21,040 bases of DNA from a virus. This document shows, piece after piece, positions 3,615 to 21,040 of this stretch (the first letter of the stretch is position 1; every line of letters begins with the position of its first letter). The translations under genes and the position numbers were made by a program. Under the pieces are notes generated by a model that was not told the DNA's origin, did not search any database, and worked only from the letters and a program-made list of their open reading frames with translations. The stretch spans positions 1-21,040 of the IMG/VR virus record IMGVR_UViG_3300003138_000004; one strand, written 5' to 3'.

Positions 3615-4631
3615 TTATTCAATTTCAAATTCGCTAATTGGTGAATTCATTTCGCTATTACTTACCCATATCTGGTAAGTAGCTGATCCGCCACTGGCAT
3701 TTATAAAAGCATCATCTCTAACTTTCGTAAATGCGGTAGAGGTAAGTCCGTTGATTTTAAATACAGGAGCACCCCAGGATGATGGAAAAGCAAATACCAG
3801 GTAATTCCCTGCGCCATCAATTCCGTTGTATGTCTTTATGCGACTGGTTGAAAACTCGCTTCCTGTGCCAACTCCTGCACCTGTTAAGGCTAATACATCA
3901 GCATCACTTATTGTAAACCCTCCATCAGTTGGTGGTACTGCGCTGGCAAAAGCTCCCCAGTATCGCTTCCACCTCCAAACAATAGTGACAGTACTGCTCG
4001 ATGATTTATCTTCTGAATTCACGTTAATCGTAAACGATGTTTGTGTATTTCTCGGGACAGATCTTCCTGCCAGAGTTCCATTTTGCGTATGATCTTCATC
4101 AAAGGGAGTGTCAATGGTTTGCGAAACTCCATCAACTTCAATCAATGTTATGGATAAACAAGCAATTGGTCTGGTTGCAGACCAGTTTAAGTCTGTGCTC
4201 AAATCTGTGCCAGCAGCCATATACTCCTGAGTGGTTGATAATGAACTGGCAATGGATGATGTTGGTGGAACCGAAGGATATAACAAGTTCTGTAGAACTT
4301 CAGTCACGCTATAACCGCCAATTACCTCTCCCGAAGGCCATGATGTTCGTGTTATCGTTCTGGTACCATCAAAGTAATTGGATACCTGTAAAACACTATC
4401 TACCTGTCTGGGTGTATAATATAAAATGGAGCTATCTTGCTTATTAACAAAATGTAATAAGGAATCTCCCAAACTGGTGTATGTTGAACCATCATAAAAG
4501 TATAGACTACCCTTAACGATTAAATAATTAGGTATATAAGCAGGTTCACCTTCTGTTAATTTAACCACCCCCTGCGACATGGCCGGAAGGGTTAAAACAG
4601 CTAAAATTAAAATGGTAATTAGTCTTTTCAT
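3615..4631 (-). CDS. Exported fibre-like structural protein
   Basis: 338 residues. A signal peptide is clear (MKRLITILILAVLTLPAMSQ, cut near residue 20). The next part contains LIVKGSLYFYDGSTYTSLGD, a short strand-rich motif common near fibre tips. The middle carries Ser/Thr-rich segments like an immunoglobulin-type fold. The C-terminal third (NYLVFAFPSSWG, FKINGLTSTAFT, YQIWVSNSEM) resembles C-terminal domains of other Bacteroidetes prophage tail proteins known to me only as hypothetical. It ends 10 nt before the larger fibre gene starts, and the two share the signal-peptide-plus-fibre layout, so they probably act together at the distal tail. No catalytic motif is visible. The family assignment is weak; the fibre role is inferred from position and composition. 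Confidence 0.6.
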   Translation of the reverse strand: MKRLITILILAVLTLPAMSQGVVKLTEGEPAYIPNYLIVKGSLYFYDGSTYTSLGDSLLHFVNKQDSSILYYTPRQVDSVLQVSNYFDGTRTITRTSWPSGEVIGGYSVTEVLQNLLYPSVPPTSSIASSLSTTQEYMAAGTDLSTDLNWSATRPIACLSITLIEVDGVSQTIDTPFDEDHTQNGTLAGRSVPRNTQTSFTINVNSEDKSSSSTVTIVWRWKRYWGAFASAVPPTDGGFTISDADVLALTGAGVGTGSEFSTSRIKTYNGIDGAGNYLVFAFPSSWGAPVFKINGLTSTAFTKVRDDAFINASGGSATYQIWVSNSEMNSPISEFEIE

Positions 4632-14921: not shown

Positions 14922-15839
14922 TTAGTTTTGTGCTACATAGTTATCCGATACAATAGCCGCACGCCCTTCTTCACGTGTTGGCATAACGATAAAGTGATGT
15001 CGGAAATTCATCATATTACGCTGATTAGCCGGGTCTTTTGCAGCTTCTGAATAATACATCTTAGTCCATCCCTGTGCTTTTGCAGCTCTTTCAAGCGTAA
15101 AAAATACGGATGCTTTTCTCGAAGTGGCTGTTGGTACAGCACCAAAGGCAAGCTTGGTTTTAGTTGCCGGTTCATACAATGGATTGCCGGTATAATCAAA
15201 TACCTGGAATCCTACAAAATCAGAAACCTTACCCGATTTGTAGTTATAATACTGGTCTGCAAATTTCTGATCCCAGCTTAAAATATCGTTCACATGATCG
15301 TTGCATAGCACCAACCTTCTTCCTTCTTCAGGAATTTCAAGATCATCAAGTTCTTTTTTCAACCGAACGATATCGGCATAAGCCAACCTTCTTCTTCCGG
15401 TTCCATCATCATCACCTGTAGTTACAAGGATAGGCATTGCAGCCGTTGCTCCACTTGGAGCCAGGGCATGAATAGCCTTTTTAATCTTGTTACGGGCAAT
15501 AGCTTTGGCATGCTTACTTTTTACAGTAGCAATCTTATCGTAAGTGAGAGCATACAGCTCATCATCGGTAACAGGGGTTTGCTTGGTTTGGTACTTATCC
15601 AATTGAAGAGTAACATCCTCTTCGCCTAATTCCTGAACAGGAATAGGATAGGTAGTATTGTTAATCAATACATCGGGAGAAACTCCCATATACACAGCAT
15701 GTATAACCTGAGCTTCGTCACCTACGTTACTCACGTAGCGGCTAAAGTCTTCAATTCCTTCAAGGAAAGTGCTTTTTTCGAGTGCGGAGAATTCTTCAAT
15801 TACTTTCCCCGTCCAAATTTCTTTTCTAACTCCTGACAT
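14922..15839 (-). CDS. Major capsid protein
   Basis: 305 residues, MSGVRKEIWTGKVIEEFSAL at the start. It contains segments typical of the Bacteroidetes Mu-like capsid family: DVTLQLDKYQTKQTPVTDDE, YDKIATVKSKHAKAIARNKI, VLCNDHVNDILSWDQKFAD and VFFTLERAAKAQGWTKMYY. The length and the basic/acidic pattern fit an HK97-fold shell protein without a long N-terminal delta domain. It sits directly after the protease-scaffold gene (19 nt), the usual order. No cross-linking residues can be assigned from sequence alone. Confidence 0.8.
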   Translation of the reverse strand: MSGVRKEIWTGKVIEEFSALEKSTFLEGIEDFSRYVSNVGDEAQVIHAVYMGVSPDVLINNTTYPIPVQELGEEDVTLQLDKYQTKQTPVTDDELYALTYDKIATVKSKHAKAIARNKIKKAIHALAPSGATAAMPILVTTGDDDGTGRRRLAYADIVRLKKELDDLEIPEEGRRLVLCNDHVNDILSWDQKFADQYYNYKSGKVSDFVGFQVFDYTGNPLYEPATKTKLAFGAVPTATSRKASVFFTLERAAKAQGWTKMYYSEAAKDPANQRNMMNFRHHFIVMPTREEGRAAIVSDNYVAQN

Positions 15840-15858
15840 TGGTTCTTATTTTAAATGA

Positions 15859-16356
15859 TTATAATTCAGGTTCAACACCATATTTAGCTTTATACAAAGC
15901 CTTGAAAGCTTCAGGGTCTTTCCTTGGCATGGCTTCTAACTCTGCCTCCACAACCTTGTTAGCTGCGGCCTCTGTCTGCCATTTATCCCAGTCCCAATCT
16001 TTACGGCTGGCTGCTTTAGGGCCTTCTCCACCACCTTTACCTTCTAATTTATCGGTAATACTCTCGTATACCTGCATGTCGGCAAATATTGCATTCAGCT
16101 CTTCCAAACCAATTCGTTCGCCCCTTTCTTCATATTCTGCCACTTTCGCCTCTGGAATTTTACCAGCATCCTTAGCTGCTTTCACAGCTGCTTTAATAGC
16201 AGATTTCTGCGACTCTTTTAGTTTCGTCTCGGCTTCTTTGGCTTTGTCATCGCCAGCCTTGATTTTAGTGTCAATTGCAGCCATGATCTCCTCCTCAGAG
16301 CTGGCTTCGGTAACAGTTGTTAAGCCGTACCTGTTGATCAAAGTTTTTTTGTCCAT
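15859..16356 (-). CDS. Possible nested scaffold protein (internal start)
   Basis: Codon 219 of the protease gene is an ATG at 16356 that opens MDKKTLINRYGLTTVTEAS, exactly where the protease domain ends and the helical scaffold region begins. It would give a 165-residue scaffold in the same frame, as in Mu Z and lambda Nu3. The bases before it (AAAATAAAACGGAA) contain no strong Shine-Dalgarno, which is normal for Bacteroidetes genes. It is inferred by analogy; the full-length protein could simply be cut instead. Confidence 0.4.
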   Translation of the reverse strand: MDKKTLINRYGLTTVTEASSEEEIMAAIDTKIKAGDDKAKEAETKLKESQKSAIKAAVKAAKDAGKIPEAKVAEYEERGERIGLEELNAIFADMQVYESITDKLEGKGGGEGPKAASRKDWDWDKWQTEAAANKVVEAELEAMPRKDPEAFKALYKAKYGVEPEL

Positions 16357-17010
16357 TTCCGTTTTATTTTGAATTTTCAATTCGGGTATAAGTACTGCGG
16401 CAAAACGTTCATATACGCCTCTTGCCCCAAGCGTTTCAATTTCTTCTCTGTTCAGCGTAGTAATATCAGTTACTGTCGATGGTATTTTTTTATTGAACAA
16501 TCCCATCTCAATTAACTCATCGGCATCGTACCAGTAATCGCTACCATCCATCCATTCGTTAACTTCAGCCTCTGTTTTATTGGTAATCTCTAAAAGCCTT
16601 TTCTTAAACTGCTTTTCAATGATGCGAAGTAATTTGGCAGTTTGCTCCATGTCCTTAGCAGTTCCATATGCTCCACCTCTGACTGTATGAATCATGCTTA
16701 AACCATTGCTAGCTATGTAACGTGTGTTGCATGCCATTGCAATAGGCACGCCCATCGAAGCAATAATACCTGGAGCATATAAATCAACAACACCGCCTGC
16801 TTTCTGAAATTCATTAATGAAAGTAATCATCAAATTACCTTCGAAAACATCACCGCCATAGGTGTGCATCCAGAAGTCAACATGCTTAATTCCCGATGTT
16901 TTAATGTCGTGCAACGCATTCTCAACAGCCCTAAAATCAAGATAGGCACCACCTACGTAACCGTAAATGGTGAGAATTGCCTTATCCGATTTCTTTTCTA
17001 ATCTAAACAT
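15859..17010 (-). CDS. ClpP-like prohead protease with C-terminal scaffold region
   Basis: 383 residues. Residues 1-180 have the ClpP/S14 fold: VDFWMHTYGGDVFEGN at about 44-59, the nucleophile Ser85 in APGIIASMGVPIAMAC, His108 in SMIHTVRGGA, and an acidic residue near 155-158 before DADELIEMGLFN. Residues 219-383 are charged and helical (KAGDDKAKEAETKLKESQKS, AIFADMQVYESITDKLEG) and resemble a scaffold. It is the first gene of the minus-strand block. The arrangement recalls Mu I/Z and lambda C/Nu3, where the protease frame contains a nested scaffold start. Maturation probably removes the scaffold from the prohead. Confidence 0.8.
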   Translation of the reverse strand: MFRLEKKSDKAILTIYGYVGGAYLDFRAVENALHDIKTSGIKHVDFWMHTYGGDVFEGNLMITFINEFQKAGGVVDLYAPGIIASMGVPIAMACNTRYIASNGLSMIHTVRGGAYGTAKDMEQTAKLLRIIEKQFKKRLLEITNKTEAEVNEWMDGSDYWYDADELIEMGLFNKKIPSTVTDITTLNREEIETLGARGVYERFAAVLIPELKIQNKTEMDKKTLINRYGLTTVTEASSEEEIMAAIDTKIKAGDDKAKEAETKLKESQKSAIKAAVKAAKDAGKIPEAKVAEYEERGERIGLEELNAIFADMQVYESITDKLEGKGGGEGPKAASRKDWDWDKWQTEAAANKVVEAELEAMPRKDPEAFKALYKAKYGVEPEL

Positions 17011-17717: not shown

Positions 17718-19247
17718 ATGAAAGTACAGGATAAAGAATCAATAAAAAGATACCGTGAGAAGATAAAGGCAAGAAGACAAAATAAAGCTTTTATCCGTGA
17801 TGACGAAACACGCGAAGAGCAGCAACGAAGAATAAAAAAAGCTAAAAATAATGTAGGTTTTTTTGTTGAAACTTACATGACTGAAATAGCCGAATGCAAG
17901 TCATCATGGTTTCAAATTCGCCTGGCTAACCTCGTTCTAAAAATGTGGGTTATACGAATATTAGTGCGCTGGGGGCGTGGACTTGCAAAATCAGTTTGGG
18001 TTGACTTAATTATTCCACTTTGGCTTTGGGTTAACGGAGAATCCATCTACATGGTTCTCGTGGCTAATAACTTTGATAAAGCAGCTGAATTACTTTCTGA
18101 TATACAACTGGAATTTGAGGAGAACGATTTATTACGTCATGATTTTGGAGAGCAGGTATTATCCGGCTCGTGGGCCGATGGTGATTTTTCCACAAAAGAT
18201 GGAAGATTCCACGGAGTGGCATTGGGTATGGGGCAAAGTCCCAGGGGTTTGCGTAAAAGGAAACACCGCCCTAATTACATCGTGTGCGATGATTTGGAAG
18301 ATAAGGACACCAGCCGAAACCCCAAACGTCAAGATGATATTGTAAAGTGGATTGAAAGAGATTTGCTACCAACAATGGACGGCCCGATTAGAAGGTACCT
18401 GCATGCCAATAACGATCCATGGCCCCGTTCCATTCAAAATTTATTGGAAAGCCGACACCCAAAATGGATTGTTGATGAAGTAAAAGCTTACGATCAAACG
18501 ACCTACGAGCCAGCATGGAAAGAAAAGTATGACAATACTTATTATCGTGATTGGGAAGAAGATATTGGAGCATTAGCAGCTCGTGCTGAGTTCAACCACG
18601 AAAAGCACGTGGAAGGTAAAATTTTTACCGATGAACACATTCAGTGGGGAAAACCTCCGGCAATGAACCATTTTAAAATATTAATCGGCTTTTGGGATGT
18701 TGCATTTTCGGGTAAAAGCGACTACAACGCCGTTAAGGTGTGGGGATTGTATGAGCGTGAGTTTTGGCAAATGAAGGCTTTTGTACGCCAGTGCAAAATG
18801 GTTGATGCTATTCGGTTCATATATGATTATGAAGAAGGATTACCCGAAACCGTGGTTGTACACTGGAAGGTTGAAAGCCAGTTCTGGAATGATCCTTTAA
18901 GAGATGCACTCCGGTTGGTTGAGATGGAGAAAGGCAGGCCGCTTAACATTGCTATTGTTGACCGCCCACGCACCAACAAGTATGACCGTATTGTAGCCGG
19001 ATTGCATCCATACTACCAAAACGGGCGCATTTACTACAACGAAAAGGAGAAAGCAAACAACGATATGCAGGTTGGTATATCGCAGCTTAAAGGAATTGAA
19101 CCGGGTTACAAAACCCACGACGACAGTCCCGATGCCGATGAACAGGCTCTTAACCATCTGGGTACTTATATAAGAGCCGAGAACTATGGTTCTATTCGCA
19201 CACGCAGTAAAGCAAGCATTCATGTTAATTCTAAAAACAGGTTTTAA
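17718..19247 (+). CDS. Terminase large subunit (Mu gp28-like)
   Basis: 509 residues. The ATPase has a Walker A-type motif RWGRGLAKS at 84-92 and Walker B YIVCDDLED at 187-195. The RNase H-like nuclease has its first acid in IGFWDVAFSGKSDY (Asp327) and the last in HDDSPDADEQA (467-477), a close match to the family signature. It lies immediately after the small subunit with no gap. It pumps DNA into the prohead and cuts the concatemer or, in Mu-like phages, the integrated genome plus host DNA. Both halves look intact. The packaging mechanism cannot be told from sequence alone. Confidence 0.85.
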   Translation: MKVQDKESIKRYREKIKARRQNKAFIRDDETREEQQRRIKKAKNNVGFFVETYMTEIAECKSSWFQIRLANLVLKMWVIRILVRWGRGLAKSVWVDLIIPLWLWVNGESIYMVLVANNFDKAAELLSDIQLEFEENDLLRHDFGEQVLSGSWADGDFSTKDGRFHGVALGMGQSPRGLRKRKHRPNYIVCDDLEDKDTSRNPKRQDDIVKWIERDLLPTMDGPIRRYLHANNDPWPRSIQNLLESRHPKWIVDEVKAYDQTTYEPAWKEKYDNTYYRDWEEDIGALAARAEFNHEKHVEGKIFTDEHIQWGKPPAMNHFKILIGFWDVAFSGKSDYNAVKVWGLYEREFWQMKAFVRQCKMVDAIRFIYDYEEGLPETVVVHWKVESQFWNDPLRDALRLVEMEKGRPLNIAIVDRPRTNKYDRIVAGLHPYYQNGRIYYNEKEKANNDMQVGISQLKGIEPGYKTHDDSPDADEQALNHLGTYIRAENYGSIRTRSKASIHVNSKNRF

Positions 19248-19249
19248 TT

Positions 19250-19687
19250 ATGGCATTTTTATCAGATAACGATTACGATGTTCAGATACGTGCTGAAATA
19301 GCAAAGCTAATCGATACCACACAGGAAAAAAGTAAGTTAAAAAGAGCTGTTGATGTGGCGATAGATCAAATTAAAAACTATTTGGCCGGACAATATGATG
19401 TAAATCAAATATTTGTTGATGCTCCTGTTGGCGAAGAAGAAGATACACGTGATCATTTTATTGTAATGTGTACCATCGATATGGCATTATACCACCTATG
19501 GAGCAAAGAAGGAGGTAATAAGATCCCACAAACCCGCAGCGACAGATATGCTGATTGCCTGGAATGGTTAAAGGCTGTGCAGAAAGGTGCGCCATGTAAC
19601 CTTCCACTGATTACCGATGATGAAGGTAATACCGTGACTGATATAAGAATCTGGAGTAAACATGAACCTGAAGATAATCGATTTTAA
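19250..19687 (+). CDS. DUF1320-family protein (Mu gp36-like)
   Basis: 145 residues, MAFLSDNDYDVQIRAEIAKL at the start, then YLAGQYDVNQIF and MCTIDMALYHLWSKEG, then the conserved RYADCLEWLKAVQKG near the C-terminus. This is the DUF1320/gp36 pattern, a head-completion or neck-type protein in Mu-like phages. In Mu it follows the capsid genes; here it sits between terminase and portal, 2 nt from each, which is a different order. The function is inferred from the family. Confidence 0.7.
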   Translation: MAFLSDNDYDVQIRAEIAKLIDTTQEKSKLKRAVDVAIDQIKNYLAGQYDVNQIFVDAPVGEEEDTRDHFIVMCTIDMALYHLWSKEGGNKIPQTRSDRYADCLEWLKAVQKGAPCNLPLITDDEGNTVTDIRIWSKHEPEDNRF

Positions 19688-19689
19688 TT

Positions 19690-20928
19690 ATGGAATACGA
19701 AGTACAATCACAATCATATTTGTTTGGTTTAGTTAAGCGAGAAACCAAAATACCAGTAGCAGCTGCAAGCAGTGCTAATAAAAAAGGTTTAATCGCTCAA
19801 ATTGTTGGTGAGTTTAAAGATAAAACCAGATCAGACATTAAAAAGTGGCGTGGGGCCCTTGATGCTGCCGATAACTACGAAGATCCCCGCTGGTTTATTT
19901 TACAGGATTTGTACGATAACCTGATGTCCGACGGTCACTTACAGGCACTTATGCAAATAAGAACAGCTGCTGTTACCGGTAACAGGTTTTATATTATGGA
20001 TCAGGACGGAAACGAGAACGAAGAGGCAAGCCGCCAGTTGGAAACCGAATGGTTTTACAACTTAATGGAGCGTTGGCTTTACAGTATTTATCGTAAGTAT
20101 TCTGTAAATGAGTTAGTGGATCCGGTTAATATGATCTGGAAAATGGTCCCACACCGGAATGTTTGTCCTCAATTTGAGAGAATATATTTCGAGGTTGGTG
20201 GTAATAAATTCATTAATTATACTGATCCTAAATTTCAAAAGAACTTAATTTCTGTTGAAAGTATTCATCCATATGGCGCATTGAATGATATCATTCCTCA
20301 ATTAATTTGGAAAAGGAATGCCCAACAGGTGTGGGCCGATCTTTCCGAACGTTTTGGAATACCAATGGTAACAGCCGAAACAATTACCACTGATAAAAAG
20401 AAACTGGACGAAATTGAGGAAGCCTTAAACAACCTCGGCCAGGCTGCCAATGCTGTTTTACCTGAAGGTACCAAGGTTACCATTCACGATGGTTCAACCA
20501 AAGGAGATCCACACAAGATTTTCATGGAGCAAATAAAAACCACGAATGATGAAATGAGTAAGGCTTTCTTAGGTGGTACAATGGTTGTTGATGACGGTAG
20601 CTCCAGAAGCCAGAGCGAAGTTCACGAGCGCACGCTGGATGAAAAGATTGCCGAAAAAGACAGACGCATGATTGAGTTTACGGTTAATAACAAACTCATT
20701 CCAATGCTTCGTATGCATGGCTTTAAATTTAACGATAACGAGCGTTTTGTTTTCGACCGCTCCGAATCATTATCCTTAAAAGAACATTGGGAAATTGTTC
20801 AGGGGGTACTCAATAGTTATGAGGTTGATGAACAATGGATATCGAAAACATTTAACGTGCCAATTCTTGGTAAAAAAGAAAGCCAGGCAGTTAATCCTAC
20901 TCAGAGCCTTGCTGCAAATTTTCGTTAG
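19690..20928 (+). CDS. Portal protein (DUF935, Mu gp29-like), zero-frame product
   Basis: 412 residues. Features match DUF935 portals: DPRWFILQDLYDNLMSDGHL near 67, LQALMQIRTAAVTGN, ADLSERFGIPMVTAET in the middle, VHERTLDEKIAEKDRRMIE and the C-terminal ESLSLKEHWEIVQGVLNS, then SKTFNVPILGKK. The TAG at 20926 comes soon after this conserved end, and the frame then appears to continue in the -1 register (see the frameshift site). The protein is shorter than Mu gp29 (512 residues). It forms the dodecameric vertex through which DNA enters the head. It starts 2 nt after the DUF1320 gene. Confidence 0.85.
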   Translation: MEYEVQSQSYLFGLVKRETKIPVAAASSANKKGLIAQIVGEFKDKTRSDIKKWRGALDAADNYEDPRWFILQDLYDNLMSDGHLQALMQIRTAAVTGNRFYIMDQDGNENEEASRQLETEWFYNLMERWLYSIYRKYSVNELVDPVNMIWKMVPHRNVCPQFERIYFEVGGNKFINYTDPKFQKNLISVESIHPYGALNDIIPQLIWKRNAQQVWADLSERFGIPMVTAETITTDKKKLDEIEEALNNLGQAANAVLPEGTKVTIHDGSTKGDPHKIFMEQIKTTNDEMSKAFLGGTMVVDDGSSRSQSEVHERTLDEKIAEKDRRMIEFTVNNKLIPMLRMHGFKFNDNERFVFDRSESLSLKEHWEIVQGVLNSYEVDEQWISKTFNVPILGKKESQAVNPTQSLAANFR

Positions 20929-20957
20929 GTGGTAATCCGGGGGCATCGATTACCACC
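20916..20957 (+). promoter_or_regulatory. Candidate -1 programmed frameshift site at the end of the portal gene
   Basis: In the portal frame the bases read GCA AAT TTT CGT TAG. A AAT TTT (20916-20922) is a correctly phased X XXY YYZ heptamer. Five bases later a perfect 10-bp stem begins: GGTGGTAATC (20928-20937) with GATTACCACC (20948-20957) around a 10-base loop. Heptamer, 5-nt spacer and strong hairpin are the standard parts of a -1 frameshift signal. No T tract follows the stem, so a terminator reading is less likely. AAATTTT is a weaker slip sequence in bacteria than A AAA AAG. Confidence 0.6.
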
Positions 20958-21040
20958 GAACATAAGCCCGAACTTTACAGCGATGTTTGCCCGCACTGTG
21001 GAGGCAAACATCCAACGGCTATGGATGATATTCCGGCTAC
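20922..21040 (+). CDS. -1-frame extension of the portal protein (runs off the window)
   Basis: After a slip at 20916-20922 translation would continue as SLGGNPGASITTEHKPELYS and then DVCPHCGGKHPTAMDDIPA, open to the end of the window (at least 39 residues). The -1 frame is open from 20895. It contains no ATG, GTG or TTG before the ATG at 21021, so the extension needs frameshifting or a repaired indel rather than its own start. CPHCGGKH (from about 20988) looks like one half of a metal-binding C-x-x-C site. It might be the true C-terminus of the portal or a linker to a head-morphogenesis domain. It is partial here. Confidence 0.55.

Follow-up and report, generated by a model that had tools for sequence, protein, structure and literature searches.

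Where does the portal protein of a Mu-type phage end? The question is raised by IMG/VR record IMGVR_UViG_3300003138_000004, a virus of Bacteroidota bacteria classed as linear, whose whole 21,040 bases were analysed here (hereafter, the window). Near its right end, a portal gene (DUF935 / Portal_Mu, PF06074) is closed by a TAG codon, while the -1 frame, already open, runs on to the last base. An earlier interpretation, made from the DNA letters without database searches (the sequence-only reading), held that programmed -1 frameshifting extends the portal. In the current work, the junction was compared with those of related phages and prophages. We propose that programmed -1 frameshifting makes a low-copy portal-MuF, or portal-MuF-toxin, fusion, which would anchor the MuF minor head protein in the portal ring, the passage by which DNA enters the head. 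From sequence comparison, we put the probability of this reading at roughly 0.88.

Results

The junction in the window

The zero-frame product is a Mu-type portal: it matches PF06074 with an E value of 9.8e-67 over the entire profile (1-336 of 336), and is 54-83% identical to the portals of its relatives. The gene ends with GCA AAT TTT CGT TAG, and the slippery heptamer in it, A AAT TTT, is of the X XXY YYZ form and in phase with the portal. Re-reading the sequence confirmed the positions first assigned to the stop, the open -1 frame, the heptamer, the spacer and the 10-base-pair hairpin (Table 1). The stem is perfect, bases 20928-20937 (GGTGGTAATC) pairing with 20948-20957 (GATTACCACC), with a minimum free energy of -17.6 kcal/mol and a z score of -2.23. 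Programmed ribosomal frameshifting is expected to have an RNA structure about 5-9 nucleotides (nt) 3' of the heptamer (here 5 nt), and a conserved 3' open reading frame (ORF) in the -1 frame that lacks its own start; the latter was found in the window and in relatives. The first ATG, GTG or TTG of the -1 frame from 20895 is the ATG at 21021, past the CPHCGG motif, in agreement with the original view that this frame has no usable start. The predicted junction peptide is ...QSLAANF followed by SLGGNPGASITTEHKPELYSDVCPHCGGKHPTAMDDIPA. Because the junction sits at the right end of the window, which holds just 40 codons of the -1 frame from there on, the content past 20895-21040 was taken from relatives.

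The -1 frame leads into a MuF gene

AAATTTT, the TAG stop and the hairpin are kept in all of the first eight relatives (portals 56-83% identical), and the -1 frame leads into a long ORF. In close relatives, this ORF spans about 450 codons, has no usable start codon, and encodes a MuF minor head protein (Mu F / SPP1 gp7-like). The window itself holds the N-terminal 40 codons only. From FSLGG on, 31 of these 40 residues are identical, by inspection, to those of locus L002, whose continuation matches PF04233 (E value 6.9e-16) and CdiA_C. Membership of the MuF family (PF04233, TIGR01641) was established in the relatives, the long -1 ORFs of the first of them matching Phage_Mu_F (PF04233) plus a domain at the C terminus, for example CdiA_C or LPD3. 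In Pfam searches with 55 of the -1 ORFs, 52 matched MuF, and the loci checked for copy number have one MuF copy each. The suggestion that the extension might join the portal to a head protein is supported by the relatives, in which the joined protein is MuF.

The hairpin was analysed in an alignment of 19 relatives across the junction, in which heptamer, stop and hairpin are all conserved. RNAalifold recovered the same stem unguided, and compensatory changes, with both sides altered, were seen at seven of nine stem pairs. Stem cells are paired in 94.2% of cases, compared with 76.5% in shuffled and at most 56.1% in slid controls, and the stem covariation is 0.676 versus 0.311 when shuffled. A search of Rfam gave no match. 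In addition, differences between the window and its nearest relatives fall mostly at third positions of -1-frame codons (positions 1, 2 and 3: 8, 2 and 11 with L002; 5, 3 and 13 with L004; 6, 5 and 12 with L005). The covariation and the third-position substitutions together argue that both the portal and the MuF parts are under selection.

These data bear on whether an indel from sequencing or assembly, or a decaying gene, has simply split one fused ORF. Relatives with in-frame fused ORFs (see below) would fit such an origin, and one locus, L021, shows a further frame change past the junction. However, the identical -1 split and heptamer recur in independent assemblies and isolates, and both the hairpin covariation and the third-position substitutions speak against it. 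The sequence-only reading had itself named a single-frame indel as a refuting observation, and a conserved heptamer and hairpin with the same split as a supporting one. The latter was found in all close relatives but L021, and the conserved split already refutes an indel or decay for the window's clade, leaving this explanation with practically no chance; in L021, a single sequence has changed once more.

A transcription terminator was also considered for the hairpin, and rejected by inspection: the hairpin comes after a T run, not before one.

Heptamers and start codons in the wider family

PF06074 searches covered about 1,180 genomes around Carboxylicivirga linearis, the named phages and fetched regions. 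They yielded 152 loci with a portal, or 144 at 90% non-redundancy, mostly from Bacteroidota. In 83 of the 144, portal and MuF overlap, with the MuF ORF in the -1 frame. An in-phase X XXY YYZ heptamer lies within the last 57 nt of the portal in 78 of these 83, whereas 17.5 would be expected with the junction codons shuffled; the wrong phases give 27 and 19 heptamers, and 8.7% of control windows inside the portal contain one in phase. We regard the originally proposed -1 programmed frameshift as the best explanation. The commonest heptamer, T TTT TTC, is found at 31 junctions, but not once in phase among 32,891 internal portal codons. A AAT TTT comes second (23 junctions), followed by A-rich, T7 and G GGA AAG sites. 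GGGAAAG is the heptamer of lambda gpG-T; in L053, L073 and L091, G GGA AAG stands at or beside the portal stop.

RNA 3' of the junctions is unusually structured, with a mean z score of -1.66 versus -0.09 for control windows taken from these genes (p = 6e-19). A strong simple hairpin follows 63 of the 78 heptamer junctions, as opposed to 14.9% of controls; of these 63, 29 have a spacer of 5 nt and 21 one of 6 nt.

It may be asked whether the fusion is instead produced by the RNA polymerase slipping on a homopolymer run. Some junctions do carry runs on which it can slip, namely A9-A10 or long T runs (L101, L155-L158). Across the family we judge this very improbable, given that the commonest sites, AAATTTT and TTTTTTC, are codon-phased, are too short for efficient polymerase slippage, and are accompanied by a covarying hairpin at ribosome-entry spacing. 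A separate portal clade (L095, L099, L151, L155-L158) has A AAA AAG or A AAA AAA runs (A9-A10), mostly with no obvious simple hairpin, and there transcriptional slippage is possible.

MuF could also have a cistron of its own, on which ribosomes reinitiate, or start by translational coupling, at a non-canonical codon close to the end of the portal gene, with the heptamer and hairpin serving otherwise. The distant Mu-type phages JD024, lotta8-1 and FPSV-S1 indeed have overlapping separate genes with an ATG; Hankyphage has an ATG at the junction as well, and in some annotations MuF begins at this codon or at a later point. On the other hand, ATG, GTG and TTG are all absent near the junction, ahead of MuF, in 61 of the 78 loci with a heptamer. 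Heptamer and ATG start are almost mutually exclusive among the -1 overlaps, an ATG being present in the -1 frame near the junction in 3 of the 78 loci with a heptamer, but in all five without (Fisher's test, 1.9e-6). Heptamers in the portal phase, placed 5-6 nt from hairpins, and the recurrence of in-frame fusions further argue against a separate cistron, which we regard as improbable.

Fused, frameshifted and separate genes

Portal and MuF occur in three architectures: as a frameshift pair, as one in-frame ORF, or as separate genes with their own start. The in-frame form, which the sequence-only reading had listed as a positive sign, was found in at least 21 loci, among them Porphyromonas gingivalis phages and the Marinifilaceae locus L033. 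PHROG 35074 holds this fused form, and the window portal and the L002 MuF match consecutive parts of it. Separate genes are seen in lotta8-1, FPSV-S1, Pseudomonas phage JD024 and some Flavobacteriia-type loci. A downstream gene with its own start, previously named as evidence against frameshifting, therefore does exist, but only in distant lineages where the heptamer is missing. In a tree of 119 portals, the frameshift state requires 17 changes and the fused state 13, of which 11 and 10, respectively, are forced by well-supported branches. This repeated interchange of fused and frameshifted forms is the strongest indirect argument that the product is a covalent fusion.

The window lies deep in a clade that is frameshifted throughout, with the exception of L021. 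In this locus (L021:5249-5330), a close relative of L020, the -1 frame stays open for 33 codons only. MuF then resumes in the frame of the portal, and an ATG lies 39 nt past the stop; this is either a natural re-split or an assembly error. At L022:5210, a tape-measure-like gene (PF10145) directly follows the portal, and no MuF was found nearby.

The same layout is found in named phages. In Hankyphage (BK010646), T TTT TTC is followed by a GGGAAA spacer and a GCCCCG...CGGGGC hairpin, ahead of the portal stop; where Hankyphage has its ATG, neither its relative L048 nor the genomic locus L052 has one. In Elizabethkingia phage TCUEAP3 (L039, OK632026.1), T TTT TTC is accompanied by a strong hairpin (z score -4.10). 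Its minor head protein is annotated from locus base 4054, and the open -1 frame begins at 3742, about 100 codons earlier. None of the named-phage records viewed annotates a joined portal-MuF.

The C-terminal domain of the MuF proteins

A toxin-like domain after MuF was found in relatives; the window ends before that region. Among the 55 -1 ORFs, the C-terminal domains were CdiA_C (23), LPD3 (6), Gln_amidase (2) and PBECR2 (1). A papain-fold glutamine deamidase toxin domain (PF15644) forms the end of two MuF proteins, and PBECR2 that of another, which suggests that C-terminal domains are exchanged as they are in polymorphic toxins. The AlphaFold model of the L032 MuF-toxin is confident (predicted local distance difference test score 85.5). 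Sequence searches of the PDB returned two solved portals, 9khx and 8rka, for the portal, and no match for the MuF-toxin.

It is possible, if rather unlikely, that the frameshift is real while the fusion is purely structural, fixing the composition of the portal ring or recruiting head proteins, with no toxin delivery. The in-frame fusion L035 shows no toxin-like Pfam domain, and toxin-like families were matched just 32 times among the 55 -1 ORFs. Still, these matches mean that most -1 ORFs end in a toxin-like domain, as MuF polymorphic toxins do (PMC5576092).

Table 1. Features of the portal-MuF junction in the window
Feature	Position	Strand	Basis
Mu-type portal gene (DUF935 / Portal_Mu, PF06074), zero frame, 412 amino acids	19690..20928	+	ORF and Pfam
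-1 frame, first portion of MuF (Phage_Mu_F / SPP1 gp7-like), truncated where the window ends	20895..21040	+	ORF and relatives
Slippery heptamer A AAT TTT (X XXY YYZ), portal phase	20916..20922	+	Sequence; kept in close relatives
5-nt spacer CGTTA, heptamer to hairpin	20923..20927	+	Sequence
Zero-frame stop TAG of the portal	20926..20928	+	TAG kept in the window's A AAT TTT relatives
Hairpin, proposed to be stimulatory, 10-base-pair stem, 10-nt loop	20928..20957	+	Folding and covariation

Other features of the window

The head module is divergent: genes for the capsid (PF25209) and a Clp-like protease lie on the minus strand (14922-17010), and a terminase-like ORF, gp36 and the portal on the plus strand (17718-20928). 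At 228-769 on the minus strand, two overlapping ORFs in different frames (PISYYGGK...FCGGAAVFF and VLNDINGELINFYKVFK) look like one gene split by a frame change at about 590-610; we take them to be two halves of a Dam/D12-class adenine methylase.

Discussion

The comparison goes beyond the sequence-only reading in that the extension is a MuF protein with a toxin-like tail, and that the layout is widespread and uses several heptamers. The following course of events is proposed. Ribosomes translating the portal mRNA would be made to pause at A AAT TTT by the hairpin that lies 5 nt further on. A fraction of them would slip back by one base, with the P- and A-site tRNAs moving together (the former from AAT to AAA, the latter from TTT to TTT), pass the TAG, and read on through MuF in the -1 frame. 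Most ribosomes would stop and release the plain portal, and a minority would make a portal-MuF fusion of about 860 amino acids. With a few fusion subunits included in the dodecameric portal, the ring would carry a few covalently anchored MuF domains. The anchored MuF is probably inside the head, and it or the toxin domain could act early in infection. Frameshifting would, in this way, make the attachment of MuF covalent and fix its dose.

Several observations weigh against this reading. First, the loci share descent, and the counts are not independent beyond the 90% identity clustering. Second, 17 of the 78 heptamer junctions do have an ATG, GTG or TTG nearby in the -1 frame, so MuF might be initiated separately at these; one of them is the ATG of Hankyphage, which annotators have used. 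Third, 15 junctions, many with A-rich heptamers, have no obvious simple hairpin. Fourth, a pseudoknot between the loop and a downstream GCC(C), suggested by eye from GGGC/GCCC, was rejected: native complementarity averages 4.12 base pairs versus 3.96 with swapped partners. Finally, the toxin assignment rests on Pfam matches, and it stays at that level since a Foldseek search of the L032 MuF-toxin model against the PDB gave nothing significant.

How does the proposed system relate to known ones? As with SPP1 gp6 and gp7, the portal and MuF genes are adjacent and the MuF domain is homologous (TIGR01641). In SPP1, gp7 enters the procapsid by binding the portal gp6, which targets a few copies to the head interior, and virions without gp7 are about 25% infectious (PMC6316719). 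SPP1 gp6 and gp7 are, however, separate proteins that bind non-covalently, whereas here frameshifting would join the two. In having a conserved -1 site and a minor, C-terminally extended form, the junction resembles tail chaperones of the lambda gpG/gpGT type (Xu, Hendrix, Duda 2004, cited in PMC6316719), and the heptamers are of the same types (TTTTTTC in SPP1 17.5). It is not such a chaperone: the zero-frame product is a portal and the -1 product MuF, in the head module, while the lambda type lies between the major tail and tape measure genes. In-frame portal-MuF genes have been described in Microbacterium phages of subclusters EA3, EA5 and EA8 and cluster EB (PMC7302621). In these, MuF is part of every portal subunit, as it is in the P. 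gingivalis phages and PHROG 35074, whereas the frameshift version would give a mixture. The order of MuF and then a C-terminal toxin-like domain, beside the portal in temperate phages, is that of MuF polymorphic toxins (Jamet et al. 2017, PMC5576092). Those are separate genes in temperate Firmicutes phages, in a text that mentions neither frameshifting nor Bacteroidetes, and toxins fused to MuF have been proposed to use a portal route of the SPP1 gp7 type (PMC6316719, PMC5576092).

We found no literature report of a portal-MuF frameshift, preprints and most subscription journals being outside the coverage. Where the papers found do report frameshifting in phages, it is in tail genes, and PRFect names MuF-like genes only as false positives. 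Thus, the recoding mechanism and in-frame portal-MuF fusions are known, and what is new is the gene pair and the proposed use.

The finding adds a frameshift site in the head module, in one of the most conserved phage genes, the well-known conserved one being that of tail chaperones. It would explain the start-less MuF genes in many Bacteroidota prophages and correct annotations such as that of TCUEAP3. It also suggests a way to place a few copies of a protein in an otherwise homomeric ring, and makes the capsid entry of MuF proteins and their toxin domains testable, with Hankyphage in Bacteroides thetaiotaomicron as a ready model. We lean, by a little, towards a broader proposal: this may be a second conserved frameshift of tailed phages, shared, with varied heptamers, by Bacteroidota Mu-type phages and prophages including Hankyphage, in which -1 slippage would set the number of portal subunits with a covalent MuF-toxin arm, and each virion would carry a few toxin copies as part of its DNA gate and deliver them along with the genome.
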